From Paenibacillus terricola (GTDB lineage: Bacteria; Bacillota; Bacilli; Paenibacillales; Paenibacillaceae): a stretch of 64,000 nt of DNA. The stretch is taken from positions 1,178,001-1,242,000 of the forward strand of contig NZ_JACXZA010000001.1 in the NCBI RefSeq assembly GCF_014779765.1, read 5' to 3'. A program made the translations under genes and the position numbers. Below the pieces are notes generated by a model, which saw nothing but the letters and a program-made list of their open reading frames with translations, was not told where the DNA came from and searched no databases. Positions within the stretch are counted from its first letter, which is position 1, and each line of letters starts with the position of its first letter. This document shows positions 6,744-64,000 of this stretch, one piece after another.

Positions 6744-6820
6744 GCATGCTCTATCGTTCTGTCCATCGAAATGGTATAGTAAAGAGGATCGAACATTTTT
6801 ACAGGAGAGAAGGTGTATGG

Positions 6821-7321
6821 ATGCCAACGGTTGAAGAGCGATTTGAATTGGATTCAATCTCCTATGCTGATGCTGAGTTCATGTCGGATCTAGATATGAC
6901 CGATATAGTTCTTAGGGCCTATGAATTAGGCGAGATGATTAACCAGTCGGCTGAAGTCGCCGATTATTTATATTGGAAATCCGTTGTTGATCAAGATGCC
7001 GAAGTTCAGGTTGGCGTCAAACTGCTGGAGAAGGCGAAGGAACAGTTCCAAGACTGTGAGCGGTTCGGCCGATTCCATCCGGATTATCATGCAGCCAAGG
7101 ATCGCGTTCGCGAGGCGCAAGCGCATCTGAATACATTCGAGGCAGTGCGAAGCTTCAAGGCCGCTGAACAGGTTGTAGACACCATGCTCTATGACGTATC
7201 ACGGTTGATCGCCGATTCTGTTTCCGAGACGGTGAAGGTGCCGAGCAACGATCCGAATCCAAAAGGAAGCGGATGCGGCGGCGGCGGTTCGTGCGGTTGT
7301 GGAAGCGGCGGCTGCGGATAA
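6821..7321 (+). CDS. ylbF: YlbF family protein, RNase Y specificity factor
   Basis: A 166-residue YlbF/YmcA-family protein. In B. subtilis YlbF, YmcA and YaaT form an iron-sulfur complex that directs RNase Y to mRNAs and affects competence, sporulation and biofilm formation. Residues 20-135 are helical (DMTDIVLRAYELGEMINQS, then EKAKEQFQDCERFGRFHPDY). The tail is glycine- and cysteine-rich with four cysteines (GSGCGGGGSCGCGSGGCG), a likely cluster-binding site. The start is the ATG at 6821, with AGGAGAGAAGG upstream; the frame stays open further upstream, but that part lies inside the previous gene. ylbG follows, as in Bacillus. Confidence 0.87.
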   Translation: MPTVEERFELDSISYADAEFMSDLDMTDIVLRAYELGEMINQSAEVADYLYWKSVVDQDAEVQVGVKLLEKAKEQFQDCERFGRFHPDYHAAKDRVREAQAHLNTFEAVRSFKAAEQVVDTMLYDVSRLIADSVSETVKVPSNDPNPKGSGCGGGGSCGCGSGGCG

Positions 7322-7376
7322 TCGGAAGTATCAATAACGCTCATGGGGCAGGCGGAGATAGAGGGGGAAGGTCGTC

Positions 7377-7640
7377 ATGTTGTCGGAACGTACCGGTTAT
7401 ATCATATGGGTGTCGGATTTGAAGGCGGCCCGTTCGTTGGATAAATACGGCACTGTGCATTATATGTCTAGGAAGATGCACTATGTCGTGATGTATGTGG
7501 ATGCGGATCGTGCTGAGGAAACATCGCGTAATATTGCTCGTCTTCCTTTTGTACGCAAGCTTGAGCGGTCCTACCGCAATGAACTGAAGACGGAGTATAC
7601 GAGCAAAGTGCCGGACAAGACTCGTACCTACAGTCTTTAG
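7377..7640 (+). CDS. ylbG: YlbG family protein (DUF2129)
   Basis: An 87-residue basic protein (MLSERTGYIIWVSDLKAARS; then YVDADRAEETSRNIARLPFV) matching the small YlbG/DUF2129 family, always found near ylbF in Bacilli. Its function is not established. A GGGGGAAGG a few bases upstream supports the ATG. It lies 55 bases after ylbF and is followed by a strong terminator, so ylbF and ylbG form the end of a transcription unit. Confidence 0.85.
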   Translation: MLSERTGYIIWVSDLKAARSLDKYGTVHYMSRKMHYVVMYVDADRAEETSRNIARLPFVRKLERSYRNELKTEYTSKVPDKTRTYSL

Positions 7641-7659
7641 CGTGTATAAATAACAAGAG

Positions 7660-7709
7660 AATTCTCTGCGTACCGCTGTTCCAAACGGAAGGCGCAGAGA
7701 ATTTTTTTA
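7660..7709 (+). terminator. Intrinsic terminator after ylbG
   Basis: AATTCTCTGCG (7660-7670) pairs perfectly with CGCAGAGAATT (7693-7703), followed by a T-run. Confidence 0.9.
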
Positions 7710-7889
7710 TACATTTTTAATTTTAACGAAGCGAATTATATGTGGTATACTTAATTCATAAGTAATACATTTTATAACAATATTGGCTCCGACTTATTTT
7801 TATGTTGAAATATCGACACGGAATGATAGAATGGAAGCGTGCATACTTATAGTTACAAAGGCCTGCTTCCCGGGGAGGGGTGAGTCGGG

Positions 7890-8327
7890 ATGAGAGACAA
7901 GTTAACCGAGAGATGGAGTACTTACGAACCATTTTATGTGGAATTGGCTGATAAGAAGGTCGCTGACATCGTAATTACTAATCACGCCAAGAGTCGTTGG
8001 ATGGATCGCGTTGAGAGCAGTAAGACCGGCTTCGCCGATATCGCCGAGTTTATGTGGCAATGTTTGAAGCAAGGACGTGTTGCTTCCTATTATCGCAACG
8101 AGCAGGACGTATACTTAATTGATGATGATCTCGTATTTGTCGCTGAATTCGCGGAGCTGGAGAAAGAAAAGGATTTGATTGGTAATCCACTTCATAAGAT
8201 GATTGTTGTCACGTTCTTAGGTCGGATGTCGGAGACCATTGAGCTTCGTGACTTGAAATCTTATTACTCATGGCTTCGTCATTCTCGCCGAATGACGCTG
8301 ATTAAGAACAGCAGGAAGAGAAAATAA
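7890..8327 (+). CDS. Unrecognised 145-aa protein with an HA-x-x-R motif
   Basis: A free-standing gene with a very strong ribosome-binding site (GGGGAGGGGTGA) and its own terminator. The soluble, charged product contains VITNHAKSRWMDRV at about residues 28-41, then a beta-rich part (QDVYLIDDDLVFVAEF) and MIVVTFLGR. The HAxxRxxxR start followed by a compact alpha/beta domain recalls DUF4258/RelE-like folds, but this is only a pattern resemblance and no antitoxin gene lies beside it. The C-terminus is strongly basic (RHSRRMTLIKNSRKRK), compatible with nucleic-acid binding. I cannot name it. Confidence 0.6.
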   Translation: MRDKLTERWSTYEPFYVELADKKVADIVITNHAKSRWMDRVESSKTGFADIAEFMWQCLKQGRVASYYRNEQDVYLIDDDLVFVAEFAELEKEKDLIGNPLHKMIVVTFLGRMSETIELRDLKSYYSWLRHSRRMTLIKNSRKRK

Positions 8328-8342
8328 TGAATCGGCAGTCAG

Positions 8343-8370
8343 AAGAAGCGCCCGGCGGCGCTTCTTTTTA
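8343..8370 (+). terminator. Intrinsic terminator after the 145-aa gene
   Basis: AAGAAGCGCC pairs perfectly with GGCGCTTCTT across a CGGC loop, followed by T-rich sequence. Confidence 0.9.
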
Positions 8371-8445
8371 TTTGCGGTAACCGCTGGTCGTTTGCGGTAT
8401 AATAGAAAGATATAGCCACTATCGGGAAGGCAGGAACGACGGATT

Positions 8446-9357
8446 ATGGCGTTAAACTTTCATCAATTACACATTTTCTTCACCGTAGCGGAGAAAGGCA
8501 GCTTCTCTGCCGCAGCGCAAGCGCTTCATATGACGCAGCCGGCAGTTACAATGCAGGTTCAATCGCTTGAGGATTACTTCGGCACCAAGCTGCTGCAGCG
8601 CTCGACGAAACGGATTGATTTGACCGAAGCGGGTCGCGCACTGCTTCCGTATGCGCAGCGAAGTCTCGAGTTGATTCGAGAGACGGATCAAGCGATGTCT
8701 AATTTTACGACCAAGCTCAAAGGTCGCCTGCAGTTGGGAGCGAGCTTAACGATCGGTGAATATATTTTGCCAAGGCTGCTGGGGCCATTCGGTTTGGAGT
8801 TTCCGCATATCTCGATCAGTATGAAGGTCATGAACACCGCCCAAATCATAGAAGATATTATGAATAATCAACTTAATTTCGGACTTATCGAAGCGCCGGT
8901 CAGCCATGCAGACATGCAGATGGACAAGGTTCTTAGCGATGAGCTCGTTCTTATCGTGGCGCCGAACCATCCGCTTGCATCGATGGAGAAGGTGACGTTG
9001 GCTGACGCGGTGAAGCATCCGTTCGTCGTGCGCGAGCAGGGCTCTGGTACGCGTCTCGTTATGGAGGATCAGCTGCGGAATCAGGATATTGATCCGAACT
9101 CGCTTGAAATTGTAATGGAGCTTGGTAGTACAGGAGCGGTGAAATCAGCAGTGGAGGCAGGCGTCGGCATCTCGATTGTTTCCAAATCGTCAATCAAGCA
9201 CGAAGTGGCGCTTGGATTAATACGGGTTGTCCCGCTTGCTGACGTTAACTTTAGACGGCATTTTTATTCCATTCATCTGAAATCAGCGCTGCTGCCGATA
9301 TCTGCAGTGACGTTCTTAACTTTTTTGCGGGAGAGGGATCTGAAGCAATGGTTGTAA
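8446..9357 (+). CDS. LysR-family transcriptional regulator (CysL/CbbR-like)
   Basis: A 303-residue LysR regulator. The N-terminal winged helix-turn-helix is clear (MALNFHQLHIFFTVAEKGSF, then AAAQALHMTQPAVTMQVQSLE). The remainder is a periplasmic-binding-protein-like effector domain from about residue 90, starting GRLQLGASLTIGEYILP. The sequence is of the CysL/CbbR type, but the effector cannot be told. A TATAAT (8398-8403) lies upstream without a convincing -35. It overlaps the following PHP gene by ten bases on the same strand, so the two are translated together; this is unusual for LysR genes, which are often divergent from their targets. Confidence 0.85.
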   Translation: MALNFHQLHIFFTVAEKGSFSAAAQALHMTQPAVTMQVQSLEDYFGTKLLQRSTKRIDLTEAGRALLPYAQRSLELIRETDQAMSNFTTKLKGRLQLGASLTIGEYILPRLLGPFGLEFPHISISMKVMNTAQIIEDIMNNQLNFGLIEAPVSHADMQMDKVLSDELVLIVAPNHPLASMEKVTLADAVKHPFVVREQGSGTRLVMEDQLRNQDIDPNSLEIVMELGSTGAVKSAVEAGVGISIVSKSSIKHEVALGLIRVVPLADVNFRRHFYSIHLKSALLPISAVTFLTFLRERDLKQWL

Positions 9358-10211
9358 GGGAACGGGCAGATCTTCATGCTCATTCGACAGCATCGGATGG
9401 GACGAATGCGCCGGCTGTTGTCGTTAGACTGGCGAAGGAAGCGGGATTGGCAGCTGTTGCATTAACGGATCATGATACGATGGCTGGCTGCGCGGAAGCA
9501 GTGGCAGAAGGCAGCCGCATCGGCATCCAAGTGATGCCTGGCATAGAGCTGAGTACGGCGATGAGTGGCCGAGACATTCATATTCTAGGTTACTGGTGCG
9601 ATACGAACGATGTTAAGTGGCAGGAACGGATTAAGATACAGCAGAGCTTTCGCGGCCGGCGCAATCTGATGATGATTGAGAAACTGCAAGAGCTTGGGAT
9701 TGCGATTACACTCGAAGAGGTTCTATCGATCGCCCGGCGGAACGGGAAGAAGGCGGATAGCGCCGAACAGATCGGACGGCCTCATCTTGCAGAGGCGTTG
9801 ATCGAACGAGGTGCCGTTGCGGATATGAAAGAAGCTTTCGACCGTTACCTAGGTGAACATGGTGCTGCTTATTGCAACCCGCCGAGGCCAACCCCTATAG
9901 AGGCAGTCGATTGGATTCGTGAGGCTGGAGGTGTGTGTGTAATCGCTCATCCGGGGTTGTATGGCGACGATGCAATCGTAGAAGAGATCGTCAAACATGG
10001 GGTACATGGCATTGAAGTGTATCATTCCGATCATAGCACTGAAGATGAGCAGCGGTATTCTGCTATGGCGGAACGTTACGGACTTGTGATGACTGGCGGG
10101 TCGGACTTCCACGGTGAGAAACGCGGCGTTGTGTTTCATGGCCCGCTGGGCGGCAGATCGGTAGATATAAGCGTAGTGGAACAATTGAAGCAGTTTATCA
10201 CTCGCGGGTAG
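9348..10211 (+). CDS. PHP-domain phosphoesterase (RNase AM / nucleoside 3',5'-bisphosphate phosphatase family)
   Basis: A 287-residue PHP protein of the YciV/TrpH family, whose members remove 3'-phosphate from 3',5'-bisphosphonucleotides and trim RNA 5' ends. Metal-binding motifs are all visible: DLHAHSTASDGT at the start, LTDHDTM, PGIELST, CVIAHPGLYG and GGSDFHG near the end. The ATG lies within the last codons of the LysR gene, indicating coupled expression. Its substrate 3'-phosphoadenosine 5'-phosphate comes from sulfate assimilation, which would fit a cysteine-type LysR and the sulfonate-type ATPase remnant downstream; that link is inference. Confidence 0.85.
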   Translation: MVVRERADLHAHSTASDGTNAPAVVVRLAKEAGLAAVALTDHDTMAGCAEAVAEGSRIGIQVMPGIELSTAMSGRDIHILGYWCDTNDVKWQERIKIQQSFRGRRNLMMIEKLQELGIAITLEEVLSIARRNGKKADSAEQIGRPHLAEALIERGAVADMKEAFDRYLGEHGAAYCNPPRPTPIEAVDWIREAGGVCVIAHPGLYGDDAIVEEIVKHGVHGIEVYHSDHSTEDEQRYSAMAERYGLVMTGGSDFHGEKRGVVFHGPLGGRSVDISVVEQLKQFITRG

Positions 10212-52100: not shown

Positions 52101-52526
52101 ATGGGTACTTTTTTGGATATGAGAAGTTCCATGAATGCGAATGCATCTGGCTCGATCGGTGTTAGCTTGACGACTGTTCCTCAGTTGTTCGGCATCATCG
52201 GTCTGCAAACGAAAAACGTAGCTAACCCAATCGTAACGCTTGCGGGAACGGTTGGTATTAGCGGCGGTGCGCTTGGCAATACGTTTACAATCGAAATCGT
52301 TCGCGGCGTAACAGGCGGCACGACGATCTACACGCTGCAATCGGCTATCGCGCTGGACGTGCTGAACGGCTCCAGTGAAGTTAGCTTCAACGTGCAGGAC
52401 TTGCTTGCACCTGCGGCGGCTGAAACGGTGTACAGTGCTTTTATTTCCGGCGGCCCGCTGGCTGTACTGACAGGCGCACGCAACGGCCCAGAAACATTCT
52501 ACGGCATCGCTTCGAGCTCCGTGTAA
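52101..52526 (+). CDS. Unrecognised 141-aa beta-rich protein, candidate surface/spore protein
   Basis: The product has no signal peptide or membrane helix. It is rich in Gly, Ser, Thr, Val and Ile with alternating beta-strand patterns (IVTLAGTVGISGGALGNTF, TIEIVRGVTGGTTIYTLQ, SSEVSFNVQDLLAP). Composition and size recall small exosporium or BclA-C-terminal-like beta-sandwich proteins of spores, but I cannot assign a family. AGGAGGTGA, a perfect ribosome-binding site, is eight bases before the ATG. It has its own terminator and lies directly before the glycan locus, so it could be a glycosylated acceptor; that is inference. Confidence 0.6.
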   Translation: MGTFLDMRSSMNANASGSIGVSLTTVPQLFGIIGLQTKNVANPIVTLAGTVGISGGALGNTFTIEIVRGVTGGTTIYTLQSAIALDVLNGSSEVSFNVQDLLAPAAAETVYSAFISGGPLAVLTGARNGPETFYGIASSSV

Positions 52527-52582: not shown

Positions 52583-52666
52583 GTGCATATGGGCATATGC
52601 GTCCATACAGACCATATTGGATCGGCATACGATAGCAAACAGTCTATGCATGCAAGGAGGTCTCCC

Positions 52667-53833
52667 GTGATAACGATAAGCTTGTGCATGATCGTGAAAA
52701 ACGAAGAGGGGGTGCTGGCGAGATGCCTCGATTCGGTGGCTGATCTTGTGGACGAGATCAACATCATTGACACGGGCTCGACCGATGCGACCAAAGCGAT
52801 TGCCGCACGGTACACGGACCGTATTTTCGATTTTGAATGGATTGATGATTTCGCTGCGGCACGCAATTTCGCATTCGAGCAGGCGACCTGCTCGCACATG
52901 ATGTGGTTGGATGCTGACGACATTATGCTGGAGAAGGACCGCGAGGCGTTCAAAAAGCTGGTAGCCAAAATGCCTGACGACATAGATTCGATTATTATGG
53001 AGTACCATTTAGCTTTCGATAAGGCAGGCAATCCGGCTGCTGGCGCCCGCCGCAATCGGATTGTCAGGCGAGAGAAGGGTTATCGCTGGTACAACCCGAT
53101 ACATGAATATTTGGACGTGACAGAAGGCAAAGTGTACGTCTCTGAAGTGGCGATCTCTCATGAGCGGATGGGCGATCACTCTGCGAGGAACATGGAGATT
53201 TTCAAGAAGAAGCTGCTGCAGGGAGGCGCGAAGCTCGAGAGCCGCAACCAGCTGTATTATGCCAATGAGCTTGTCGACCAGCAGATGTATACGGAGGCGG
53301 CAGAGCAATACGAGCAGTTTGTACGTAATGAGAACGAGACGGCGGAGGATCGCATGTTCGCCTACAGCAAACTGGCAGAGTGCTACCATCATCTGAATCA
53401 GAAGCAGAAGAAGATGCAGTCGCTGTTGTTAGCCTTGCAATTCGCGGTTCCAAGGGCGGATCATTGCTGCTCGATCGGATACAGCTTCGAGGAGAGAGGA
53501 CAATACGATGCGGCGGTCCATTGGTATGAGCTGGCGCTGACGCTGCCGAAACCGCAATATCATATGGGGCTGCTCAACCTCGTCTGCTGGACGTGGATGC
53601 CGCATGTTCAGCTATGCATTTGTTATGCCAAGCTGGGACAAATCGAGAACGCCTATAAGCACAATGAGAAGGCCCTTGCTTATTTGCCTGATGATGTCAA
53701 TCTGCTGGACAATAAGCTGCGGTTGGAGCAGGCGCTTGGGATCGCGCAGACGGCAGAGAACAATCAGGAGCCGATCGGGGAATCTGCACCTCAGCCCGAT
53801 GATCCGAACGGCGGAACGGAGTCCCCATGCTGA
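52667..53833 (+). CDS. Family 2 glycosyltransferase with TPR-like repeats
   Basis: A 388-residue protein. The GT-A domain (about 1-210) has ITISLCMIVKNEEGVLARCL, IIDTGSTDAT and the metal-binding MMWLDADD. TPR-like helices follow (about 205-360: NQLYYANELVDQQMYTEAAE, ERGQYDAAVHWYELAL). This architecture is common in Bacilli for enzymes decorating surface or spore proteins. Translation starts at GTG 52667, fixed by AAGGAGG six bases upstream; the longer frame from 52583 lies in the terminator. The gene overlaps the next by seven bases, starting the glycan operon. Confidence 0.88.
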   Translation: MITISLCMIVKNEEGVLARCLDSVADLVDEINIIDTGSTDATKAIAARYTDRIFDFEWIDDFAAARNFAFEQATCSHMMWLDADDIMLEKDREAFKKLVAKMPDDIDSIIMEYHLAFDKAGNPAAGARRNRIVRREKGYRWYNPIHEYLDVTEGKVYVSEVAISHERMGDHSARNMEIFKKKLLQGGAKLESRNQLYYANELVDQQMYTEAAEQYEQFVRNENETAEDRMFAYSKLAECYHHLNQKQKKMQSLLLALQFAVPRADHCCSIGYSFEERGQYDAAVHWYELALTLPKPQYHMGLLNLVCWTWMPHVQLCICYAKLGQIENAYKHNEKALAYLPDDVNLLDNKLRLEQALGIAQTAENNQEPIGESAPQPDDPNGGTESPC

Positions 53834-56124
53834 CGAGCATTATTCTAGTAACGTACAACAAGCTGGAATATACGCAGCAGTGCATCGAGAGCATCCGCCG
53901 GCATACGACGCAGGGAAGCTTCGAGATCATTGCAGTAGATAATGGATCAAGCGACGGTACGCAAGATTGGTTGGAACAACAGGATGATATCCGCTTCATT
54001 GCTAATGCGGACAACGCTGGATTTCCAAGAGCATGCAATCAGGGGTTAGAACAGGCTGTAGGAGAGCTGCTGATGCTGCTCAATAACGATACGCTCGTCA
54101 CGCCGCGTTGGCTGGACGGACTGAAGGCAGCGCTGCTGAGCGATCCGGCAATAGGCGCAGTAGGTCCTGTAACGAATGCAGCCTCTTACTTAACGAGCAT
54201 TCCGGTGCCTTATCAGGACGGAGATGCGATGGAGTCGTTCGCGGAATCGTTCAACCATTCTGATTCATCCAAATGGGAAGAGCGGCTCAAGCTGATCGGT
54301 TACTGTTTGCTTATGAAACGGGAGGCTTACGAGAAGGTCGGTCCGCTGGATGAGCGTTTCGGGATTGGGAATTACGAGGATGACGATCTGAGTTTGCGTA
54401 TATGGCTTGCTGGCTACCGCTTGCTGCTCTGCAATGATACATTCATCCATCATTACGGGAGCGTATCGTTCGGCGAGAATATGAAGCAGTTTCAAGAGCT
54501 GCTGCATGTAAATTCGGACCAGTTCATGAGCATTTGGGGGTTTCGGCCAGCTCTCGCTCTTAATATTCGCACGGACCTGCTTGGGATGGTCGAGGGCGAA
54601 TTCAAACAGAAGAACCCGCTTCGCGTAATGGAAATCGGCTGCGGCTGCGGCGGTACGCTGCTCGCGATCAAATATCGTTTTCCAGGCTCAGAGTTGTATG
54701 GGGCAGAGAGGAACGAAGCGGCTGCGCGTATTGCAGGCGCGGTCGGCATTACGGTCTTCCGTTCCGGTCGGCCGAATGAGTGGTCGATTCCCGATGGAAC
54801 GCTCGATATGGTGCTGATCGGCGATGCGCATGCGTACGCAGCATTGCCTCAGCTAATGGCAGCTGTTACGCGTAAGCTTCGTGTTGGCGGTTGGATAGCG
54901 GCAGGATATGCGAACCGACAGTTTTACCGATACAGCAACCGGATAGCGGAAGGGGAGGCGGTTGACGCCTCGCTGCTGCACACCATGAATGAAGCGGCAG
55001 CGGTTATGGCGGGAGCGGGCATCGGCGGCTTGCGGCCTGCGCTTGCATTGGAGCCGGAAGCTGAGCGAGATCAGGAAGGCATAATGACGGCTGCTCTGCG
55101 GGATATCGAGACGTCCGATAATGAGCGGATGGCTTCTTACTTCGTCCTGATGGGCCGCCGGACTACATCGATTCCGGCGAAGCAGACGAGGGATGAAGAA
55201 GCTGCGGAGCGGCCAGAACAGGAAGAACAGGAAGAACAGGAAGAACAGGAAGAACAGGAAGAACAGGAACAGACAGAGACGAAATCAGAATCAGCAGTCG
55301 TCCCTCCTGCAACTGCTGCAGGCAGCCGAGAAAGTTCACAGCAAGAAGCATCTAGCGACGCAGCTATCAAGGAACAGAATGATATCGCTTTTACGGGCGA
55401 ACGCCTAGTTGTGAATGCAGAAGTGAAAACTCAGTTCCGCGATGTATACGACGAGCATATGGTGCGTTATACAGCCGCAGCGAGATATGTGTCCAGTCTG
55501 CATGTGCTGGATGCGGCATGCGGTGCTGGTTATGGTTCGCGCATGCTGCTCGAGTCTGGTGCTGCATCGGTCATCGGCATCGACATCGATGTCGAGACGA
55601 TCCGAGCAGCACAGCGGGATTATGGCAAACCGGGCATCGTGTATATGCAAGGAGACGTGCTGCGGCTTCCGTTCGCAGATGGCACGTTCGATGCGGTTGT
55701 ATCGTTCGAGACGATTGAACATGTCGAGGACGGATATGCATGGGTGCGGGAATCGGCTCGCGTGCTTCGCTCTGGAGGACTGCTTATTGTCTCGACGCCG
55801 AATCGCGAAGTGACGAATGCATCGAATTATTGGGAAGAGGCTCCTTTTAATCCTCATCATCAGTTCGAGTACAGCATTGGCGAGCTGCTTGGCGATCTTC
55901 TGCGCGAGTATACGATTGAGGCGCTCTACGGACAGAATTGGATCGATGACTCGCAGTTTGCTGCCATGCGCTGGCTGCGGGATACGAATCAGATGACCGT
56001 AGATCGCGATGAGCAGTATCGAATTTCTTCTGCGGGCAGCGAGTTGCAGCCATTCCACCAGTTCCGCAGCGGCAAACCAATGTACATCGTTGCAATATGC
56101 CGCAAACGGCAGGGAGGCGCTTAA
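53827..56124 (+). CDS. Glycosyltransferase fused to two methyltransferase domains
   Basis: A 765-residue three-part protein. A GT2 domain (about 1-255) has SIILVTYNKLEYTQQCIESI, VDNGSSDGT and LLNNDTLVTP. A first SAM-methyltransferase-like domain (about 262-430) has RVMEIGCGCGGTLLAI. A hinge at 464-481 is six exact copies of Glu-Gln-Glu. A second methyltransferase (about 515-765) has VLDAACGAGYGSRML, GDVLRLPF and FETIEHVEDGY. It probably adds a sugar and methylates it or the chain end in one polypeptide. The second domain looks canonical; the first lacks some later motifs and may be degenerate. Confidence 0.85.
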   Translation: MLTSIILVTYNKLEYTQQCIESIRRHTTQGSFEIIAVDNGSSDGTQDWLEQQDDIRFIANADNAGFPRACNQGLEQAVGELLMLLNNDTLVTPRWLDGLKAALLSDPAIGAVGPVTNAASYLTSIPVPYQDGDAMESFAESFNHSDSSKWEERLKLIGYCLLMKREAYEKVGPLDERFGIGNYEDDDLSLRIWLAGYRLLLCNDTFIHHYGSVSFGENMKQFQELLHVNSDQFMSIWGFRPALALNIRTDLLGMVEGEFKQKNPLRVMEIGCGCGGTLLAIKYRFPGSELYGAERNEAAARIAGAVGITVFRSGRPNEWSIPDGTLDMVLIGDAHAYAALPQLMAAVTRKLRVGGWIAAGYANRQFYRYSNRIAEGEAVDASLLHTMNEAAAVMAGAGIGGLRPALALEPEAERDQEGIMTAALRDIETSDNERMASYFVLMGRRTTSIPAKQTRDEEAAERPEQEEQEEQEEQEEQEEQEQTETKSESAVVPPATAAGSRESSQQEASSDAAIKEQNDIAFTGERLVVNAEVKTQFRDVYDEHMVRYTAAARYVSSLHVLDAACGAGYGSRMLLESGAASVIGIDIDVETIRAAQRDYGKPGIVYMQGDVLRLPFADGTFDAVVSFETIEHVEDGYAWVRESARVLRSGGLLIVSTPNREVTNASNYWEEAPFNPHHQFEYSIGELLGDLLREYTIEALYGQNWIDDSQFAAMRWLRDTNQMTVDRDEQYRISSAGSELQPFHQFRSGKPMYIVAICRKRQGGA
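55216..55269 (+). repeat. Six perfect 9-bp repeats (GAACAGGAA) in the interdomain hinge
   Basis: Six identical in-frame units encode (Glu-Gln-Glu)6 between the two methyltransferase domains. Identity at the DNA level suggests recent slippage. Confidence 0.95.
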
Positions 56125-56126
56125 GC

Positions 56127-56912
56127 ATGAAGGTCGTCATATTGGCCGGCGGTCTCGGCACGCGGATCAGCGAGGAATCGCATCTTAAGCCGAAACCAAT
56201 GATTGAGATCGGCGGCAAGCCGATTTTATGGCATATTATGAAAATTTACGCGCATCAAGGGTTTACGGACTTCATCATTTGCCTCGGATATAAAGGATTC
56301 GTTGTAAAGGAGTACTTCGAGCATTACTTTCTGCATGAATCGGATGTCACATTCGACTTTCGCGGGGGCGAACGGACGGTAACGACCATTCATCGGCATC
56401 AGGCCGAGCCGTGGCGAGTGACGCTCGTAGATACGGGACTCGATACGATGACAGGCGGACGGTTGAAGCGGGCGGCTCCTTATCTAGAGGATGAAACCTT
56501 TATGCTGACCTACGGCGATGGCGTAGCGGATATCGACCTGCAGCAACTGCTTCTTCATCATCGCACGCATGGCAAGCTGGCGACGGTGACAGCGGTTCAG
56601 CCGGTCGGAAGGTTCGGCTCACTTGCGCTTGGCGCTGATCATTCCGTAGCGACGTTCGCGGAGAAGCCGCGTGGGGATGGCCATTGGGTAAGCGGCGGAT
56701 TCTTCGTGCTTGAGCCGGGTGCGTTGGAGCGAATAGACGGGGACGAAATGATGCTGGAGAAAGAGCCGCTGGAACGGCTCGCAAGCGAGGGACAGCTGAT
56801 GGCTTATCAGCATGCCGGGTATTGGCAGTCGATGGATACGATGCGAGATAGAGCGCTGCTGGAAGAGCAGTGGCGTTCGGGCAATGCGCCTTGGCGGATA
56901 TGGGGAAGTTAG
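56127..56912 (+). CDS. rfbF: Glucose-1-phosphate cytidylyltransferase
   Basis: A 261-residue nucleotidyltransferase making CDP-glucose from CTP and glucose-1-phosphate, the first step to CDP-6-deoxy sugars. It starts MKVVILAGGLGTRISEES, the pyrophosphorylase signature, followed by KPKPMIEIGGKPILWHIMK, the strongly RfbF-like CLGYKGFVVKEYF and the product-site LTYGDGVADID. GGGAGG nine bases upstream picks this ATG over the open frame before it. It pairs with rfbG immediately downstream. Confidence 0.94.
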   Translation: MKVVILAGGLGTRISEESHLKPKPMIEIGGKPILWHIMKIYAHQGFTDFIICLGYKGFVVKEYFEHYFLHESDVTFDFRGGERTVTTIHRHQAEPWRVTLVDTGLDTMTGGRLKRAAPYLEDETFMLTYGDGVADIDLQQLLLHHRTHGKLATVTAVQPVGRFGSLALGADHSVATFAEKPRGDGHWVSGGFFVLEPGALERIDGDEMMLEKEPLERLASEGQLMAYQHAGYWQSMDTMRDRALLEEQWRSGNAPWRIWGS

Positions 56913-56975
56913 GGCACTGCTTTTGTTGATGGCGATGGCAAATTGCATGCGTTAAGAAAGCTGGGAGGACAGCAG

Positions 56976-58100
56976 GTGAGCGGAGAGCAGCAGTTGTGGC
57001 AGGGCAAGCGGGTGTTAATAACCGGGCATACCGGTTTCAAAGGAACGTGGCTTGGACTATGGCTGCGCATGCTTGGCGCTGAGGTTGTCGGTTATAGTGA
57101 CGAGATGCCATCAGCGCCAGCCATGTATCGGCTATGCGGCTTTGAGCATGACATGCCGTGGGTACGCGGCGACGTACGGGACGGAGACAGATTGCAGCAG
57201 GCAGTCCGCGATGCAAAGCCGGATATCGTGTTTCATCTGGCTGCGCAGCCGCTTGTTCGGCGTTCTTACGCAGAACCTGCTGAGACGTTCGAGATCAATG
57301 TGAACGGTACGGCGAACGTGTTGAACAGTGTAAGGCTGCAGCCCTCTGTCCGCGCAGCTGTCATTGTAACGTCAGACAAATGTTATGCAGGGACCGCATC
57401 CGGAAATGGTTTCGTTGAGTCGGATCCGCTAGGAGGTATGGATCCTTACTCGGCCAGTAAAGCATGTGCGGAGCTGACGGTGGAAGCGTACCGTCATTCT
57501 TATTTCAGTGATGGCAGCGGAAACGCGTCGATAGCAACCGCGCGTGCGGGCAATGTGATTGGCGGAGGGGACTTCGCTGAAGACCGCATCGTGCCAGATA
57601 TGGTGAGGGCGGTGCAATCCGGCCAATCGATTCGGCTGCGCCGGCCTGATGCGATACGCCCTTGGCAGCATGTGCTGGAGCCCTTATCGGGCTACATGCG
57701 GCTTGCAGAGCGGCTCTATTTGAACGGCTCGAACTATGCGGAGGCTTGGAATTTCGGGCCGTCAGCCGACCAAGACATGACCGTGCAGGAGCTAGCAGGG
57801 AGGATGGCCGCCAAGCTGGGAGCACAGCCGCCGTCCGTTCCGGATGCAGGTACACCGTTGGAAGGGCCATACGAAGCGCCAGTTCTACGTCTTGACAGCA
57901 CGAAAGCGCGAATAAGGCTTGGCTGGCAGCCGGTATGGCATACGGATGAAGCCATTGATCATACGGCGTCCTGGTATGAACGATGGTTCAAGGGTGCGCC
58001 GATGCGTGAGATCGCTATGCGTCAAATCAGGCAATATGAAGCGGCGGCAGCCATGCTCCGAGCAGCAACGGAAAGCGGGGATCCGGGCGATGAACAATAA
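56976..58100 (+). CDS. rfbG: CDP-glucose 4,6-dehydratase
   Basis: A 374-residue short-chain dehydrogenase that converts CDP-glucose to CDP-4-keto-6-deoxyglucose. The NAD-binding GHTGFKGTWLGLWL and the catalytic YSASKACAE follow the RfbG pattern, as do DKCYAG, GNVIGGGDFAEDRIVPD and RPWQHVLEPLSGYM. Translation starts at GTG 56976, six bases after GGGAGGA. It overlaps the methyltransferase gene by 11 bases. Confidence 0.94.
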   Translation: MSGEQQLWQGKRVLITGHTGFKGTWLGLWLRMLGAEVVGYSDEMPSAPAMYRLCGFEHDMPWVRGDVRDGDRLQQAVRDAKPDIVFHLAAQPLVRRSYAEPAETFEINVNGTANVLNSVRLQPSVRAAVIVTSDKCYAGTASGNGFVESDPLGGMDPYSASKACAELTVEAYRHSYFSDGSGNASIATARAGNVIGGGDFAEDRIVPDMVRAVQSGQSIRLRRPDAIRPWQHVLEPLSGYMRLAERLYLNGSNYAEAWNFGPSADQDMTVQELAGRMAAKLGAQPPSVPDAGTPLEGPYEAPVLRLDSTKARIRLGWQPVWHTDEAIDHTASWYERWFKGAPMREIAMRQIRQYEAAAAMLRAATESGDPGDEQ

Positions 58101-59400
58101 AGCAGCGGATGTAGATCAATCGGGTAACCAGCAGAAGCTTACGCCGACTGATTCGACGGTGAGCGGCGTGGGGATGGCTGCGAACGACCCGGGATGCTCG
58201 GGACATAAATGCCGCGTATGCGGGGAGGGGCCGCTGGTCAGATGGGTGCATATGCCCGCGATGCCGCTGACGGAGGAGCTTCGTCCGCCGGATTACGGAG
58301 GTTCCCCTTACTTGGCTGATATTGATGTGTATCGCTGCACTGCATGCGGCATATCGCAAACGGTAGGCGAGCGTGACCTCTCTCCCTACTACGTCGATTA
58401 TGGGTATACAGTTGGTCAATCGCCATTTGCTGCGCGGTTCATGCAGCGGCTGGCGGACACGGTGCGTGACCGATTTGGACTGCAGCAAGGCTTCAAAGTA
58501 ATTGAGATCGGCTCGGGAGATGGCGCCCAGCTGGCATGCTTCCAACGTGCTGGCGCCGAAGTGTTCGGCATTGAGCCTTCTGCGGAGTTGTGCCGAGTGA
58601 GCCGTGCACGCGGCGTGCCGGTGATGGAGGCGTTGTTCATGCCGCAGACAGCGGCGCTTCTGCCAGAAGCGTTCCAGCCTGCTGATGTACTGCTCATGAC
58701 CTATACATTCGATCATCTGCCGGATCCGTCAGGTACGCTCGAGGCGGCGCGCAGAACGCTGCATCCCGGCCGCGGTCTGCTGGTGCTCGAGGTGCACGAT
58801 CTATCGCGCATTGCGGAGCGAAGAGAATATTGCTTGTTCGAGCACGAGCATTACACCTATTGGACAGCGGAAACACTCCGCTGTGCACTGGCGAACAGCG
58901 GTTTCCGGTTGCTGACAACGGAGCTGCTGCCCGAGCGTGAGCGGCGCGGCAATTCCTTGCTTATTGCAGCAGCAGTGATGGATGCCGCGCATTCGCCGGA
59001 ATCGGAAGTCGTGCTAACGGAGGCCACCACGATCGATTATGATACGTTTCAACAAGAGCTGGATCAGGGGATTGCAAGGTTGGATGCTTTCGTTGAGGAG
59101 GAAACATCGCTAGGCCGTAAAGTTGCAGGGTATGGCGGTGGCGGAAGAGGCGTCATGACGATGGCGGCTATGACTTCGGCTTGGCGTATTGCCTACGTAT
59201 GCGATGCGAATACAGGGCTGCATGGACTGCTTGCGCCTAAGTCCCGCGTGCCAATTGCTCCAATTAATCGTTTGTCGGAGGAACCGGTCGATACGCTCAT
59301 TGTGTTCAGTTATGGCTATATGACAGAAATCCGCGAAGCGGTCGAGAAGCTGTCGAACGCACCGCAACGAATCGTTTCGATGCTCGATATTTTGAAGTGA
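58090..59400 (+). CDS. Zinc-binding sugar C-methyltransferase (TylC3/NovU-like)
   Basis: A 436-residue three-domain methyltransferase. The N-terminal zinc site is C41-x-x-C44 and C83-x-x-C86 (CRVCG, CTACG). A SAM-binding core follows (about 135-260, VIEIGSGDGAQLACF, then FDHLPDPSGTL). The C-terminal domain contains KVAGYGGGGRGVMTM and FSYGYMTEIREA. Family members methylate C3 of 4-keto-6-deoxy nucleotide sugars, producing 3-C-methyl sugars. The position right after rfbF and rfbG gives it a CDP-4-keto-6-deoxy substrate. The first 35 residues are poorly conserved. Confidence 0.9.
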   Translation: MNNKAADVDQSGNQQKLTPTDSTVSGVGMAANDPGCSGHKCRVCGEGPLVRWVHMPAMPLTEELRPPDYGGSPYLADIDVYRCTACGISQTVGERDLSPYYVDYGYTVGQSPFAARFMQRLADTVRDRFGLQQGFKVIEIGSGDGAQLACFQRAGAEVFGIEPSAELCRVSRARGVPVMEALFMPQTAALLPEAFQPADVLLMTYTFDHLPDPSGTLEAARRTLHPGRGLLVLEVHDLSRIAERREYCLFEHEHYTYWTAETLRCALANSGFRLLTTELLPERERRGNSLLIAAAVMDAAHSPESEVVLTEATTIDYDTFQQELDQGIARLDAFVEEETSLGRKVAGYGGGGRGVMTMAAMTSAWRIAYVCDANTGLHGLLAPKSRVPIAPINRLSEEPVDTLIVFSYGYMTEIREAVEKLSNAPQRIVSMLDILK

Positions 59401-59410
59401 GGGGTCGTGT

Positions 59411-61387
59411 ATGGAACAGCAGCAGACGCGAGAGATGGATAGGAGAACCGAGCGTCGCACGGCAGTTGTGACGGGTGCGGCCGGTTTCATTGGTGCTGCC
59501 GTATGCCGAGAGCTGCTGAGCAAAGGATGGCAGGTCTATGCCATTATTCGACCAGGTTCAGCCGCAGCACGATTGCCGCGCGGCGAAGAAGCGCTGCAGT
59601 TGATCGAGGGTGATTTGCTGCAACCATCGAGTTGGCAAGGGCAGCTTGAAACAGCTGCGGCAGCGGGCGAACGATTCGACTGCTGGCTGCAGCTTGGCTG
59701 GGCGGGAGTTGCCGGTGCTGCTCGCAATGATGCATGGCAGACAGCGAATGTTGAGGCCGCAGCTGATTCTGTAAGGCTGGCTGCGCGTCTTGGCTGCAAC
59801 AGCTGGATTGGCGCCGGCTCGCAAGCGGAATATGGTCAGATGGAAGGCCGCGCTGATGAAGGGGCGATAGAAGCGCCAACAACAGCTTATGGACGTGCCA
59901 AGCTCACAGCAGGCAGGCAAGCGCTGGAGGAAGCGACACTCCACGGGCTGAACGGCTATTGGGTGCGCATATTCAGCGTTTACGGACCTGACGATAATGA
60001 CAATTGGCTTATTCCGGGATTAGTTCGGCAGCTAATGGCAGGTGAAAGCCCTGCGATGACGCTTGGCGAGCAGCGCTGGGACTATGTATATATCGATGAT
60101 GCAGCGGCTTCCTTCACCTTACTGGCTGAGCAATCGACAGCGGCTAGACATAAGCATCTGGCATCCACCACAGCCGCTGTATCGGAGGAGAGTCAGCATC
60201 GGGAACGCAAGCTCGGCCGCAGGCTAGACCCAGCTCCTGGCGTGTACAATCTTGGCTCTGGCGTCAGTCGAACGATTCGCGATATCGCTGAGCATGTGCG
60301 AGAAGAGGTGGCTGCACAGCTGCCTCGCGGCCTGCCGTTAGGCGTGCCGCAAGCTTCGTCTGATGATATCTCGGATCTAGAGCATTCGCATATCGAGTAC
60401 ACGCCAGACGGCAGACGGGTGCCGATTATCCGATACGGTGTAGTCCCTTATCGCGATGATCAAGTCATGATGATGGAAGCGGACACCGCCAAGCTGCAGC
60501 GCGAGACGGGCTGGCGCCCGCGAACAGCGCTCGCCGACGGGATTAAGCGAACGGTCGCTTCTTATGCGGATGCGTTGGAACAAAGTCGCAGCGTAGCGGT
60601 CAAACGGGCTATCGTGACTATGGCATATCGTTCGAATTCCTCTCACGTCGGTGCAGCGTTATCCGCCGCAGATATAATGGTAGCCCTCTACTTCCATGTG
60701 CTTCGGGTTGATCCGAATCAGCCAGATGCACCAGAGCGAGATAAACTGGTGTTCTCCAAAGCACATGCGAGTACAGCCCTCTATGCCGTGCTTGCAGAAC
60801 GGGGCTACTTTCCGAGAAATGTCCTGGACAGCTATTCGGTGGACGGCGGCCAATTGCCAGGGCACTTGGATCGTAAAGCAGCGCCCGGCATTGATGCTTC
60901 CGCCGGATCATTAGGCCATGGTCTCTCGATCGGAACGGGATTTGCGATTGCAGACCGGCAGGCAGGGCGCAGCAGTCGTACTTATGTCGTGCTCGGTGAC
61001 GGCGAATGCAATGAAGGCTCAATCTGGGAGGCTGCACTAGTAGCCTCGTCGCTTAAGCTGAATCAATTGATAGCAGTCGTCGACTGCAACGGCTGGCAAG
61101 GCTTCGATCGTACGGAGCCATTGTCGCCCTATGCCTCTCTAGCAGACAAATGGCGTGCATTCGGCTGGGAAGCCATAGAGGCTGATGGGCACGATGGGAA
61201 TGCATTAATTCATGCATTGGATCATCAGAGCGTCGAGAGCCGCCCAACTGTTGTGCTCGCTAGAACAGTGAAGGGCAATGGCGTTGACTTCATGGCGGAT
61301 ACACTCGAGTGGCATTATAAGTCGCCGAACGATGCACAGTGGCAGGCTGCGGTCGAACAGCTTGGCGGCAGGGAGGGGAAGGGATGA
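59411..61387 (+). CDS. Fusion of NAD-dependent sugar epimerase/reductase with transketolase N-terminal (TPP) subunit
   Basis: A 658-residue fusion. Residues about 15-385 are an extended short-chain dehydrogenase: AVVTGAAGFIGAAVCREL, the YGRAK catalytic pair (Tyr160, Lys164), VRIFSVYGPDDNDNW, ending TGWRPRTALADGIKRTVASY. From about residue 394 a transketolase N-half begins (SNSSHVGAALSAADIMVALY) with KLVFSKAHAS, GSLGHGLSIGTG and the thiamine-diphosphate motif GDGECNEGS (about 529) ending in VVDCN. No stop or ribosome-binding site separates the parts. The C-half is the next gene, one base later. I infer two-carbon ketol transfer to the 4-keto sugar, then reduction. Confidence 0.88.
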   Translation: MEQQQTREMDRRTERRTAVVTGAAGFIGAAVCRELLSKGWQVYAIIRPGSAAARLPRGEEALQLIEGDLLQPSSWQGQLETAAAAGERFDCWLQLGWAGVAGAARNDAWQTANVEAAADSVRLAARLGCNSWIGAGSQAEYGQMEGRADEGAIEAPTTAYGRAKLTAGRQALEEATLHGLNGYWVRIFSVYGPDDNDNWLIPGLVRQLMAGESPAMTLGEQRWDYVYIDDAAASFTLLAEQSTAARHKHLASTTAAVSEESQHRERKLGRRLDPAPGVYNLGSGVSRTIRDIAEHVREEVAAQLPRGLPLGVPQASSDDISDLEHSHIEYTPDGRRVPIIRYGVVPYRDDQVMMMEADTAKLQRETGWRPRTALADGIKRTVASYADALEQSRSVAVKRAIVTMAYRSNSSHVGAALSAADIMVALYFHVLRVDPNQPDAPERDKLVFSKAHASTALYAVLAERGYFPRNVLDSYSVDGGQLPGHLDRKAAPGIDASAGSLGHGLSIGTGFAIADRQAGRSSRTYVVLGDGECNEGSIWEAALVASSLKLNQLIAVVDCNGWQGFDRTEPLSPYASLADKWRAFGWEAIEADGHDGNALIHALDHQSVESRPTVVLARTVKGNGVDFMADTLEWHYKSPNDAQWQAAVEQLGGREGKG

Positions 61388-61388
61388 G

Positions 61389-62315
61389 ATGAGGAATGCT
61401 TTCGTACGCGAGCTGCTGAAGCGGGCAGAGACGGATGAGCGCATTTTCGTTATTACACCTGACCTTGGGTTCTCCGTCTGGGAGTCGTTCCGCGAGCGAT
61501 ATCCTTCCCGATTTCTTAATGCTGGCATCGCTGAACAAAATGCAGTGGGCATTGCCGCAGGTCTTGCGCTCGCAGGCCATATCGTCTATGTGTACAGCAT
61601 CATTCCGTTCGTGACGATGCGCGCTTATGAGCAGATTCGAGTGGACGCGGCTTACATGAACACGAACGTCCGTATTGTCGGCGTCGGTGCGGGCTTTGCC
61701 TATGGCGGTCAGGGACCGACGCATCATGGACTGGAGGACGTCGCGCTTATGCGTGCGCTGCCGAATATGACGGTATGCTGTCCGGGCGATGATATCGAAG
61801 CGCGCGAGCTGACGTCGGCAAGCTTCGACCATCAAGGTCCGATGTACATCCGACTTGGCAAGTCTGGCGAGGCACGCGTACATGAGCCGGATACGCGAAT
61901 TGCGCTTGGGGAACCGATTGAACTCATAGCGGGCTCGCAGATTGCAGTTCTCGCTTCGGGCACCGCACTCGGCCGTGCCAAGGAATGGGTGCTTCGGCTG
62001 CGTGAAGAAGCTGATCCTGTGGAGGCTGCGCTCGTGAGCGTGCCGACCGTAAAGCCGTTCCCGGCCGAAATCATCAACAAGTATGCGGGGCGAGGCATTC
62101 CTCTCGTTACCGTCGAGGAGCACAGCGTGATCGGCGGACTAGGCTCGGCTTCGGCAGAGGTGCTGGCAGAGCTTGGCGGAGGCGTTCGGCTGCGGCGATT
62201 CGGCCTGCCGGACGTATTTTGCCGGGAAGTGGGGAGTCATTCGTATTTGCTTGAGCGGTCGGGTTTTCATTATGAACGATTTCAGGACATCGTGAGAGGA
62301 GCATGCGGGCAATGA
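61389..62315 (+). CDS. Transketolase C-terminal (pyrimidine-binding) subunit
   Basis: A 308-residue transketolase C-half. Signatures are MRNAFVRELLKRAETDERIF, RFLNAGIAEQNAVGIAAGLA with the glutamate contacting thiamine diphosphate, GPTHHGLEDVALMRALPNM, then PLVTVEEHSVIGGLGSA in the last domain. Split transketolases of this kind replace or supplement the long enzyme in many anaerobes and sugar clusters. The ATG at 61389 follows the preceding stop by one base; the partner half is fused to the epimerase upstream. Four-base overlap with the next gene. Confidence 0.92.
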   Translation: MRNAFVRELLKRAETDERIFVITPDLGFSVWESFRERYPSRFLNAGIAEQNAVGIAAGLALAGHIVYVYSIIPFVTMRAYEQIRVDAAYMNTNVRIVGVGAGFAYGGQGPTHHGLEDVALMRALPNMTVCCPGDDIEARELTSASFDHQGPMYIRLGKSGEARVHEPDTRIALGEPIELIAGSQIAVLASGTALGRAKEWVLRLREEADPVEAALVSVPTVKPFPAEIINKYAGRGIPLVTVEEHSVIGGLGSASAEVLAELGGGVRLRRFGLPDVFCREVGSHSYLLERSGFHYERFQDIVRGACGQ

Positions 62316-63073
62316 CAGATTCGTTCAAGCCGATGGGGATGATCGGCAAGCATCATCGGCCGTCCGATTTCGAGGCGTACCGATTAACGGAGGAGACGTT
62401 CGAGCAGTCGCAGCTGTCCGTATTTAATAAGCTAGAGGCATTTCCGCGTTTTGCAACGAAGCGCAGTCTGGCCAAATTTCTGTGCCGCCACGAAATATTC
62501 AAGCATGTGCTCGGCGTAACAGGGAGCATCGTCGAATGCGGCGTGTTCAATGGCGGCGGGCTGTTCACATGGGCGCAGCTGTCCAACATTTATGAGCCAT
62601 CCAATCATACGCGCAAAATCATCGGCTTCGATACGTTCGCAGGTTTTCCGTCTGTATCCGAAGAGGATCAAGAGCCGGACGACGAATTCAAAGCCGGCGA
62701 TTTGAAAGGCGAGACGATTGACCAGCTGCAGCGTTCCATCGAGAAATATACGGCGGAGCGCTATTTGTCGCATATCCCGAATATGGAACTCGTGCAAGGA
62801 GATTTCATGGCGACAGCAGACGCGTATGTGGAACGGAATAAGCATCTGCTCGTCTCGCTGCTCTATCTGGATTTCGATCTATATGAGCCAACGAAGAAAG
62901 CGCTGGAAGTGTTCCTCCCAAGGATGGGCAAAGGGGCTGTCATCTGCTTCGATGAGTTGAACTGCGCTTCTTTCCCTGGCGAGACTTCCGCGCTGCTTGA
63001 GATGCTGCCGATTCGTGATTCGGCGATCCGCCGTTTTCCGACAGACCCATGGGTGTCGTATGTCATTCTGTAA
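62312..63073 (+). CDS. TylF/MycF-like class I SAM methyltransferase
   Basis: A 253-residue methyltransferase of the TylF-like group that O-methylates sugars in macrolides and surface glycans. Visible are GSIVECGVFNGGGLFTWAQL, IIGFDTFAGFPSVSEED, GDLKGETID and LLYLDFDLYEPTKKALEVF with the acidic metal-binding residues. GAGAGGAG lies ten bases before the ATG at 62312; an ATG at 62303 is too near it. ATGA overlap with the transketolase subunit shows it belongs to the same operon. Confidence 0.82.
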   Translation: MTDSFKPMGMIGKHHRPSDFEAYRLTEETFEQSQLSVFNKLEAFPRFATKRSLAKFLCRHEIFKHVLGVTGSIVECGVFNGGGLFTWAQLSNIYEPSNHTRKIIGFDTFAGFPSVSEEDQEPDDEFKAGDLKGETIDQLQRSIEKYTAERYLSHIPNMELVQGDFMATADAYVERNKHLLVSLLYLDFDLYEPTKKALEVFLPRMGKGAVICFDELNCASFPGETSALLEMLPIRDSAIRRFPTDPWVSYVIL

Positions 63074-63091: not shown

Positions 63092-64000
63092 ATGAGCGAG
63101 GAGGAACGTAAAGAACCAGAGAGGTCAGAGGCAGAGTCAGTGGGAACGTCGTCAGAAACTTCTCAGGACAATAACAGCCCCTATCAAGGCTTCTACTTCC
63201 TTGGCGAGAACACGATCATTGAGGCAGGTTGTGCCACGCATGGACGCAAAGAAATGGCGATTGGCAGCGGTGTGTTTGTCAGGACTGGCGCATGGTTCAA
63301 TATTTGCACCGAAGTAACGGGTGATCGGCCCAAAATAATAATCGGCGACTACTGCCAGTTTAACAAAAACGTGTGTATGTCGGCGGCGAATCGGATTCTA
63401 ATCGAGCGTTTCGCGATGATTGGCCCCCAGTCCTTCATCATGGATACGCAGCATGAATACCGGCATATTGGTGTCCCGATCGCTTATCAGGGCATTACCG
63501 AAACAGAAGGCGAGACGATTATCGGCGAGAGTACGTGGGTTGGCGCGAACTGCGTAATAAGCGGTCCGGTTAAGATTGGCAGAGGCTCAGTCATCGGCGC
63601 GAACAGCGTTGTGACGCGTAATATTCCTGATTATTGTGTTGCAGCGGGAATGCCTGCCCGTGTCATCAAAATGTTCGACACTCACGCTGTCGATTGGATA
63701 TCGGTAAAAACGAAAGAGGACGTCGATGCGGTTATGCGCAGAAGGCGGGAGCGACCGGTGTTATCGATTTGCATTCCGACTTATAATCGTGCTGCTGACT
63801 TGAATCGATGTCTCCATTCGATCGTTCATCAGATTGGCGACTGTTCATTATTTGAGGTTGTCGTATCCGATAACGCATCGCCAGATGCTACCCAGCAGGT
63901 GCTGGACTCTTTTGCCAAAGCTTATCCGAATATGAATTTGCGTTATTGGCGCAATGACGACAACATCGGGGCAGAGCGAAACATTATCAAGCTGTTGGAT
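63092..64000 (+). CDS. Hexapeptide-repeat acetyltransferase fused to a family 2 glycosyltransferase, 3' end outside the window
   Basis: An open frame from ATG 63092 to the window edge (303 codons). After a charged tail (1-30), a left-handed beta-helix acyltransferase spans about 35-200 (IGDYCQFNKNVCMSAANRIL, GESTWVGANCVISGPVKIG, GSVIGANSVVTRNIP, AAGMPARVIK). From about 222 a GT2 domain begins (RPVLSICIPTYNRAADLNRC, VVSDNASPDATQ, NDDNIGAERNI) and is cut. One protein may thus transfer a sugar and O-acetylate it. AAGGAAA upstream is a modest ribosome-binding site. Confidence 0.85.
   Translation, partial: MSEEERKEPERSEAESVGTSSETSQDNNSPYQGFYFLGENTIIEAGCATHGRKEMAIGSGVFVRTGAWFNICTEVTGDRPKIIIGDYCQFNKNVCMSAANRILIERFAMIGPQSFIMDTQHEYRHIGVPIAYQGITETEGETIIGESTWVGANCVISGPVKIGRGSVIGANSVVTRNIPDYCVAAGMPARVIKMFDTHAVDWISVKTKEDVDAVMRRRRERPVLSICIPTYNRAADLNRCLHSIVHQIGDCSLFEVVVSDNASPDATQQVLDSFAKAYPNMNLRYWRNDDNIGAERNIIKLLD

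Follow-up and report, generated by a model that had tools for sequence, protein, structure and literature searches.

What does a transketolase do in an operon for cytidine diphosphate (CDP)-activated sugars, and why should one of its halves be fused to a short-chain dehydrogenase/reductase (SDR)? The question is raised by a locus of Paenibacillus terricola in the stretch of DNA analysed here, 64,000 nucleotides of contig NZ_JACXZA010000001.1 (positions 1,178,001 to 1,242,000, forward strand; hereafter the window). Judging from sequence comparisons, the operon probably supplies a surface glycan with a branched 6-deoxy sugar, a dedicated split transketolase adding a hydroxyacetyl unit to the C4 ketone of a CDP-sugar and the SDR reducing the ketone of the branch.

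The fused gene and its partner

A single open frame without internal stop (59411-61387, forward strand) encodes a protein of 658 amino acids (aa) in which an extended SDR is followed by the N half of a transketolase (TKN), matched in Pfam by Epimerase (aa 19-247, E = 1.4e-31) and Transketolase_N (aa 398-651, E = 5.3e-36), respectively. The SDR carries the motifs of the extended family, TGAAGFIG (TGxxGxxG) and YGRAK (YxxxK). The stop of the fusion ends at 61387 and the ATG of the C half (TKC; 308 aa, with Pfam domains Transket_pyr and Transketolase_C) stands at 61389, leaving one base between the genes; together the two chains have the domain composition of a two-chain split transketolase. The original prediction, that an SDR with YxxxK shares a frame with the thiamine diphosphate (ThDP)-binding half of a transketolase and that the pyrimidine-binding half is the next gene, is confirmed in both parts.

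It had also named a stop between the two domains as an outcome that would overturn it. There is none: the same stop-free fusion occurs in five more genomes of the family (G046, G057, G035, G003 and G096; loci L044-L048) and on the Paenibacillus cellulosilyticus plasmid NZ_CP054609.1, where it appears identical in alignment to the fusion of L045. All six genomes examined from the genus of the window match the fusion, which is itself visible in five of them; the contig of G022 (L051) breaks off within the SDR, which alone provides the match. G140 (L049) has the same gene order unfused, with the SDR and TKN as two genes 9 bases apart, which is likely the earlier state. A missed stop or frameshift is ruled out by a frame that is open in six genomes and, since the fusion is open in relatives and L049 keeps the order unfused, neither chance nor a missed stop explains it.

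Linkage to rfb genes across genomes

In a survey of 295 family genomes (fusion matches at E ≤ 1e-60 with at most four candidates scored per genome, rfbG counted above its cut-off, lists compared by hand), rfbG was found in 116 and a fusion match in 71. Wherever TKN was at least 49% identical, rfbG lay within about 4 kb (11 of 11 genomes, that of the window included); among the matches listed, none of the 59 genomes with only a more distant TKN had a match within 10 kb of rfbG. One of the 11 linked genomes, G215 (L055), looks decayed or poorly assembled at this place, RfbF, RfbG and TKN falling into frames that overlap (3857-10201); RfbG of L048 (7035-8125) is affected likewise, in both cases through either gene decay or sequencing errors.

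The pairing of split transketolases with rfb genes is wider than the original prediction supposed. In a scan of named genomes, covering the best 80 of at least 579 confirmed loci, eight of the nine most similar loci (from Paenibacillus species, Geobacter sp. OR-1, a Nitrospirae metagenome-assembled genome (MAG) and an Oryzomonas MAG) are flanked by RfbF, RfbG or RfbH, the exception being L071, whose short contig begins within the SDR. Methylovirgula sp. HY1 has the gene order rfbF-rfbG-SDR-rfbH-TKN-TKC, rfb genes accompany a split transketolase in Janthinobacterium CG3 and a Lachnospiraceae MAG as well, and Desulfobaculum bizertense combines them with a more distant one. On the plasmid of the latter (L186), rfbH is followed directly by the transketolase halves, which have Asp at 461 and Asn at 469 (residues are numbered here as in Escherichia coli TktA, EcTK, used as the alignment guide), and several genes look incomplete. 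A context-blind check took nine loci by TKN score alone, comprising all six new matches at E ≤ 1e-106 in samples of three phyla and the three best, other than the window, of a Bacillota sample; RfbF and RfbG were present at six of these (L192-L197, among which L192-L194 are near-identical) and not at L191, L198 and L199.

A tree of 97 concatenated TKN and TKC rows, from which five key columns were masked, places the window in a clade of 17 rows with full support (SH-like approximate likelihood-ratio test, SH-aLRT, 100). Sixteen of the 17 lie beside rfbF, rfbG or rfbH, the remaining row being L071 with its contig that starts inside the SDR, and the fused lineage forms a six-row clade within the 17. 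A second tree, with newer loci added (54 rows), recovers a clade of 18 rows, again with full support. Outside this clade, too, there are rfb-linked rows (L040, L138, L093, L192-L195 and L197). A separate split-transketolase clade (L074, L075, L080, L083, L084, L102 and L113) has Gly at 461 and Leu at 469, and its loci have in the flank an SDR resembling deoxythymidine diphosphate (dTDP)-glucose 4,6-dehydratase, directly upstream of TKN in L075 and L080, where it falls below the NCBIfam cut-off; this clade possibly performs the same chemistry on another nucleoside diphosphate (NDP)-sugar.

Split transketolases are widespread (265 of the 348 genomes from the phylum match the profile at E ≤ 1e-85), and an ordinary redundant copy might have come to lie in a glycan operon by chance with its function unchanged. 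The linkage within the family (11 of 11 against 0 of 59 among the matches listed), the recurrence across phyla and the divergence of the active site make this very improbable. The window genome has three further transketolase-like places (38, 30 and 30% identical), so a role of the operon copy in central metabolism is also unlikely.

An altered substrate site

TKN keeps H26, H66, H100, D155 and N185 and TKC keeps E411 and H473, that is, the ThDP and metal residues, the activating Glu and the catalytic His, together with R358 and S385. The H261 column is unaligned with TktA, and its presumed counterpart, a His at TKN245, is conserved in the alignment of relatives. The substrate site of pentose-phosphate transketolases (H461, D469, R520) is replaced by Gly, Gln and Lys, and E468 is also replaced by Gly. 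We take H461 and R520 to bind the substrate phosphate and D469 to touch the hydroxyl next to the acceptor carbonyl. In engineering studies of the E. coli enzyme, R358, S385, D469 and R520 tune acceptor use, D469T favours nonpolar acceptors, and docking places the substrate carboxylate near R520, H461 and R358 (PMC7661550, PMC10787763).

In all 17 rows of the main clade residue 461 is Gly and residue 469 is Gln or Ala, with the catalytic residues kept (TKN of L055 is incomplete); among the 31 rows in which residue 461 is His, 30 have Asp at 469. The columns that separate the 17 rfb-linked enzymes from the 31 His-461 enzymes lie partly around active-site motifs. Genomic context follows residue 461: among the 79 loci of the best-80 set in which a TKC was found, sugar or glycan genes (flank matches of at least 55 bits to a reference set from the window and Methylovirgula) occur near 28 of the 30 Gly loci (the exceptions being L085 and L136), one of the 30 His loci, one of the 14 Ser loci and none of the 5 that carry another residue. 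The contrast between Gly and His is strong but not calibrated, because the reference set is biased to this operon type and the flanks differ in length.

The single His-461 row without Asp at 469, L042 (Tyr), comes from the Streptomyces sp. CL7 plasmid pSALBX2 (7956-9784), where the split transketolase lies beside a DegT-type aminotransferase, nonribosomal peptide synthetase genes, LysW, argC and argB. This is a different specialised use of a split transketolase.

Substrate supply and proposed pathway

RfbF and RfbG both match their NCBIfam equivalogs above the cut-offs, the mark of a CDP-6-deoxyhexose pathway, and RfbG is the sole TIGR02622 match over cut-off in the genome. RfbH, the mark of a CDP-3,6-dideoxyhexose pathway, was not found in the window genome, whose best matches reach 34-36% identity over part of the query, and a 3-deoxy substrate was rejected for this genome on that ground. 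With RfbF and RfbG present and no RfbH found, the acceptor on offer is CDP-4-keto-6-deoxyglucose, possibly C-methylated; it would stay 3-hydroxylated (or C-methylated) and not become 3-deoxy as in yersiniose.

On strong family evidence, RfbF and RfbG would supply CDP-4-keto-6-deoxy-D-glucose, which the C-methyltransferase-like protein encoded between RfbG and the fusion probably methylates next to the ketone. A related gene is present in L044-L049 and L051, and the whole set of RfbF, RfbG, this protein, SDR-TKN and TKC recurs in five genomes besides that of the window, with the SDR and TKN unfused in L049. TKN and TKC would form a thiamine enzyme like the two-chain transketolase of Carboxydothermus, with a ketose phosphate or hydroxypyruvate as the predicted donor of a two-carbon hydroxyacetyl unit. 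The neighbouring genes, the tree and the changes in the active site point to addition of this unit to the C4 ketone, which would give a tertiary alcohol with a hydroxyacetyl branch. The fused SDR would then reduce the branch ketone to yield a 4-C-(1,2-dihydroxyethyl) sugar, or set another carbonyl. Its fusion to TKN would fix a 1:1 ratio of the two and may serve to hand over the intermediate, and genes further along the operon may provide for methylation, acylation and transfer of the sugar.

The original prediction had likewise proposed that a split transketolase branches a CDP-4-keto sugar. The CDP-4-keto-sugar operon, the usual SDR partner, the occurrence in several phyla and the changed acceptor residues support this reading in part; that transketolases branch keto sugars is not a wholly new idea (PMC12247030). 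The original prediction made no mention of the C-methyltransferase-like gene, which may act on the same sugar, or of the missing RfbH.

The SDR partner also bears on the proposal. The SDRs of the fused loci are kin to those next to the transketolase in L049 and L069, at 215-304 bits, and in Methylovirgula, at 170-213 bits, and score only about 40-120 bits against five reductases from rfbH clusters without a transketolase.

Several observations weigh against a transketolase dedicated to branching the CDP-sugar. No such transketolase half was seen beside rfbG in 105 of the 116 rfbG-containing family genomes (G022, cut at its contig end, among them), which makes this pathway one of several choices. 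The partner SDR is not of one kind: L050, L052 and L053 have a second branch, which scores about 50-96 bits against the SDRs of the fused loci, and L066, L070 and L196 a third, encoded after TKC. Outside the main clade, the rfb-linked L138 and L093 have Leu at 469, and L186 is quite different. Loss of D469 is no marker by itself, since the Ser-461 group has Leu at this position and reference sugar genes near only one of its 14 loci. Finally, a phosphorylated substrate still fits the site, which retains R358, S385 and the positive charge at position 520.

This last point would be expected if the split transketolase provided a sugar phosphate, such as a heptulose or pentose phosphate, as precursor to a different sugar in this glycan and had no part in modifying the CDP-sugar, leaving the SDR alone to reduce the C4 ketone; the SDRs beside rfbH in annotated clusters without a transketolase are plausible 4-ketoreductases. 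We consider this explanation unlikely, given that H461 and D469 are lost together throughout the rfb-linked clade, that scans of nine operon proteins with Pfam and six with NCBIfam gave no heptose-pathway enzyme over a cut-off, that the transketolase genes lie amid CDP-sugar genes and that the SDR is fused to the transketolase itself.

The two-carbon unit could also go to a different ketone. The SDR precedes TKN in the fused loci and in L049, L050, L052, L053 and L069, and might first oxidise or epimerise the CDP-sugar (or its C-methylated form) and thereby direct the branch to C2 or C3, much as an oxidoreductase is proposed to make the ketone ahead of the split transketolase in miharamycin and amipurimycin biosynthesis (PMC12247030). 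Such a route is improbable in our estimation: RfbG already supplies a C4 ketone, the SDR comes after TKC in L066, L070 and L196, and YerE, the branching enzyme of yersiniose synthesis, is reported to act on CDP-3,6-dideoxy-4-keto-D-glucose (PMC12247030).

Branching at C4 by the split transketolase, if true, would have practical consequences. There is a demand for ketone-attacking transketolases to catalyse the formation of tertiary alcohols, and the operon provides a candidate whose acceptor two known enzymes can make, together with a residue signature for finding more. With the SDR fused on, the enzyme would act as a natural catalyst for two consecutive steps, and branched surface sugars are predicted outside antibiotics.

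Other genes of the operon

The genes surrounding the fusion are listed in Table 1. Directly upstream of the operon is a gene for a 141-aa protein that has no match in Pfam or NCBIfam and none beyond chance in the PDB. It was found by tblastn in all seven fused-type loci searched (L039, L044-L048 and L051) at 74-96% identity, compared with 47-71% for the SDR domain, and is a candidate glycan carrier. In the glycosyltransferase-methyltransferase fusion, the methyltransferase domains fall in two matched stretches and an EQ-rich linker is seen in the translation.

Table 1. Genes and domains of the operon, with positions in the window
Feature	Position	Strand	Evidence and remarks
141-aa protein without database match	52101..52526	+	Candidate carrier or surface protein
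Family 2 glycosyltransferase with TPR repeats	52583..53833	+	Pfam Glycos_transf_2, TPR; kept in L044-L048 and L051
Glycosyltransferase-methyltransferase fusion	53827..56124	+	Pfam Glycos_transf_2, Methyltransf_11
RfbF, glucose-1-phosphate cytidylyltransferase	56097..56912	+	TIGR02623, 411 bits (cut-off 300)
RfbG, CDP-glucose 4,6-dehydratase	56943..58100	+	TIGR02622, 462 bits (cut-off 278)
C-methyltransferase-like protein	58090..59400	+	Pfam Methyltransf_13/23/14 layout; Methyltransf_13 below its cut-off
Extended SDR domain of fusion	59411..60565	+	Pfam Epimerase; alignment; TGxxGFIG, YxxxK
TKN, ThDP diphosphate-binding half, of fusion	60581..61387	+	Pfam Transketolase_N; E. coli TktA alignment
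TKC, transketolase C half	61389..62315	+	Pfam Transket_pyr, Transketolase_C
TylF-type O-methyltransferase	62303..63073	+	Pfam TylF; kept in L044-L048
Hexapeptide acyltransferase-glycosyltransferase, runs off the window	63092..64000	+	Pfam Hexapep, Glycos_transf_2

Residue 469 and the acceptor

Among rfb-linked enzymes, residue 469 varies with the presence of rfbH. Where rfbH is present, 11 of 12 rows have Ala (L138 has Leu); where it is absent, 11 of 13 have Gln (L195 has Ala and L093 Leu). These counts include the near-identical L192-L194 three times and leave out L186 (rfbH present, Asn; divergent and incomplete), the duplicates L064, L065, L068 and L045, L041 and L137 (other or partial) and L071 (contig cut). 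Fisher's exact test gives p = 3e-5 with kinship ignored; only two (the starred branches) to four independent pairs are available, for which a sign test is not significant. A strict rule equating Ala with a 3-deoxy and Gln with a 3-hydroxy acceptor is weakened by this kinship and by L138, L195 and L093, and we keep it as a lead only: residue 469 may face the carbon next to the ketone, where Gln would contact the C3 hydroxyl that RfbH removes.

It is possible, and we put it forward tentatively, that these enzymes belong to a widespread class of nucleotide-sugar transketolases, marked by Gly-461, that branch surface-glycan keto sugars across many phyla. Residue 469 would then read C3 of the acceptor, being Ala where RfbH has removed the C3 hydroxyl and Gln where it has not, and the Leu-469 sister group would serve other NDP-sugars made by dehydratase-like SDRs.

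Comparison with known systems

The YerE pathway to yersiniose in Yersinia pseudotuberculosis resembles the proposed route in having a CDP-sugar 4-ketone, a two-carbon branch added by a thiamine enzyme and a later ketoreduction to be expected (PMC12247030; PMC4753412). YerE thus provides a precedent for two-carbon transfer to a CDP-4-keto sugar (PMC12247030), and Pau7, of another family, provides one for a dedicated branch ketoreductase (PMC4753412). YerE is a flavoprotein of the decarboxylase superfamily that uses pyruvate and acts on a 3-deoxy sugar (PMC12247030; PMC4753412), whereas the window has a split transketolase, no RfbH found in its genome and a hydroxyacetyl branch as the expected product. 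The decarboxylase-type (TPP_enzyme) domains of a YerE-like carboligase have no Pfam match in the nine operon proteins scanned.

The pairs AviB1/AviB2 (avilamycin) and Pau11/Pau12 (paulomycin) are kin to dehydrogenase E1. Like the enzyme of the window, they are two-protein systems of Gram-positive bacteria proposed to place a two-carbon branch on a keto sugar; unlike it, they are proposed to use pyruvate and to give an acetyl branch (PMC4753412). The window protein scores 124.7 bits against Transketolase_N and 29.4 bits against E1_dh, over the cut-off of 22 for E1_dh but well below its best family. Pfam supports neither an enzyme of the dehydrogenase E1 type nor one of the YerE type.

The nearest solved chains by sequence for both halves are those of the split transketolase of Carboxydothermus hydrogenoformans (PDB 6yak, 6yaj; E = 2.4e-66 and 1e-52), which differs from the enzyme of the window in having His and Asp at positions 461 and 469. 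The Carboxydothermus enzyme has been assayed on aldehydes (PMC7661550).

According to a 2025 review, YerE-like enzymes are found for the most part in cell-surface sugars and transketolases largely in antimicrobial natural products (PMC12247030). An exopolysaccharide cluster of Actinoplanes also includes a split transketolase (PMC13390465). Among the matches listed in a literature search, whose coverage excluded most subscription journals, none described an SDR-TKN fusion or placed a split transketolase in a CDP-sugar operon. Hydroxyacetyl transfer to a keto sugar, as we propose for the window, has been suggested for the transketolases of miharamycin and amipurimycin biosynthesis, with 13 further split sequences, all from Streptomycetes, and as of that review none of the proposed keto-sugar transketolases had been characterised in vitro (PMC12247030). 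Compared by description only, these differ from the enzyme of the window in belonging to secondary metabolism, and the section of the review that describes them mentions neither a CDP-sugar nor an SDR fusion (PMC12247030). A split transketolase that branches keto sugars has already been proposed for Streptomyces antibiotics, and the enzyme of the window would be a variant of that kind, set in a CDP-sugar operon and fused to an SDR.

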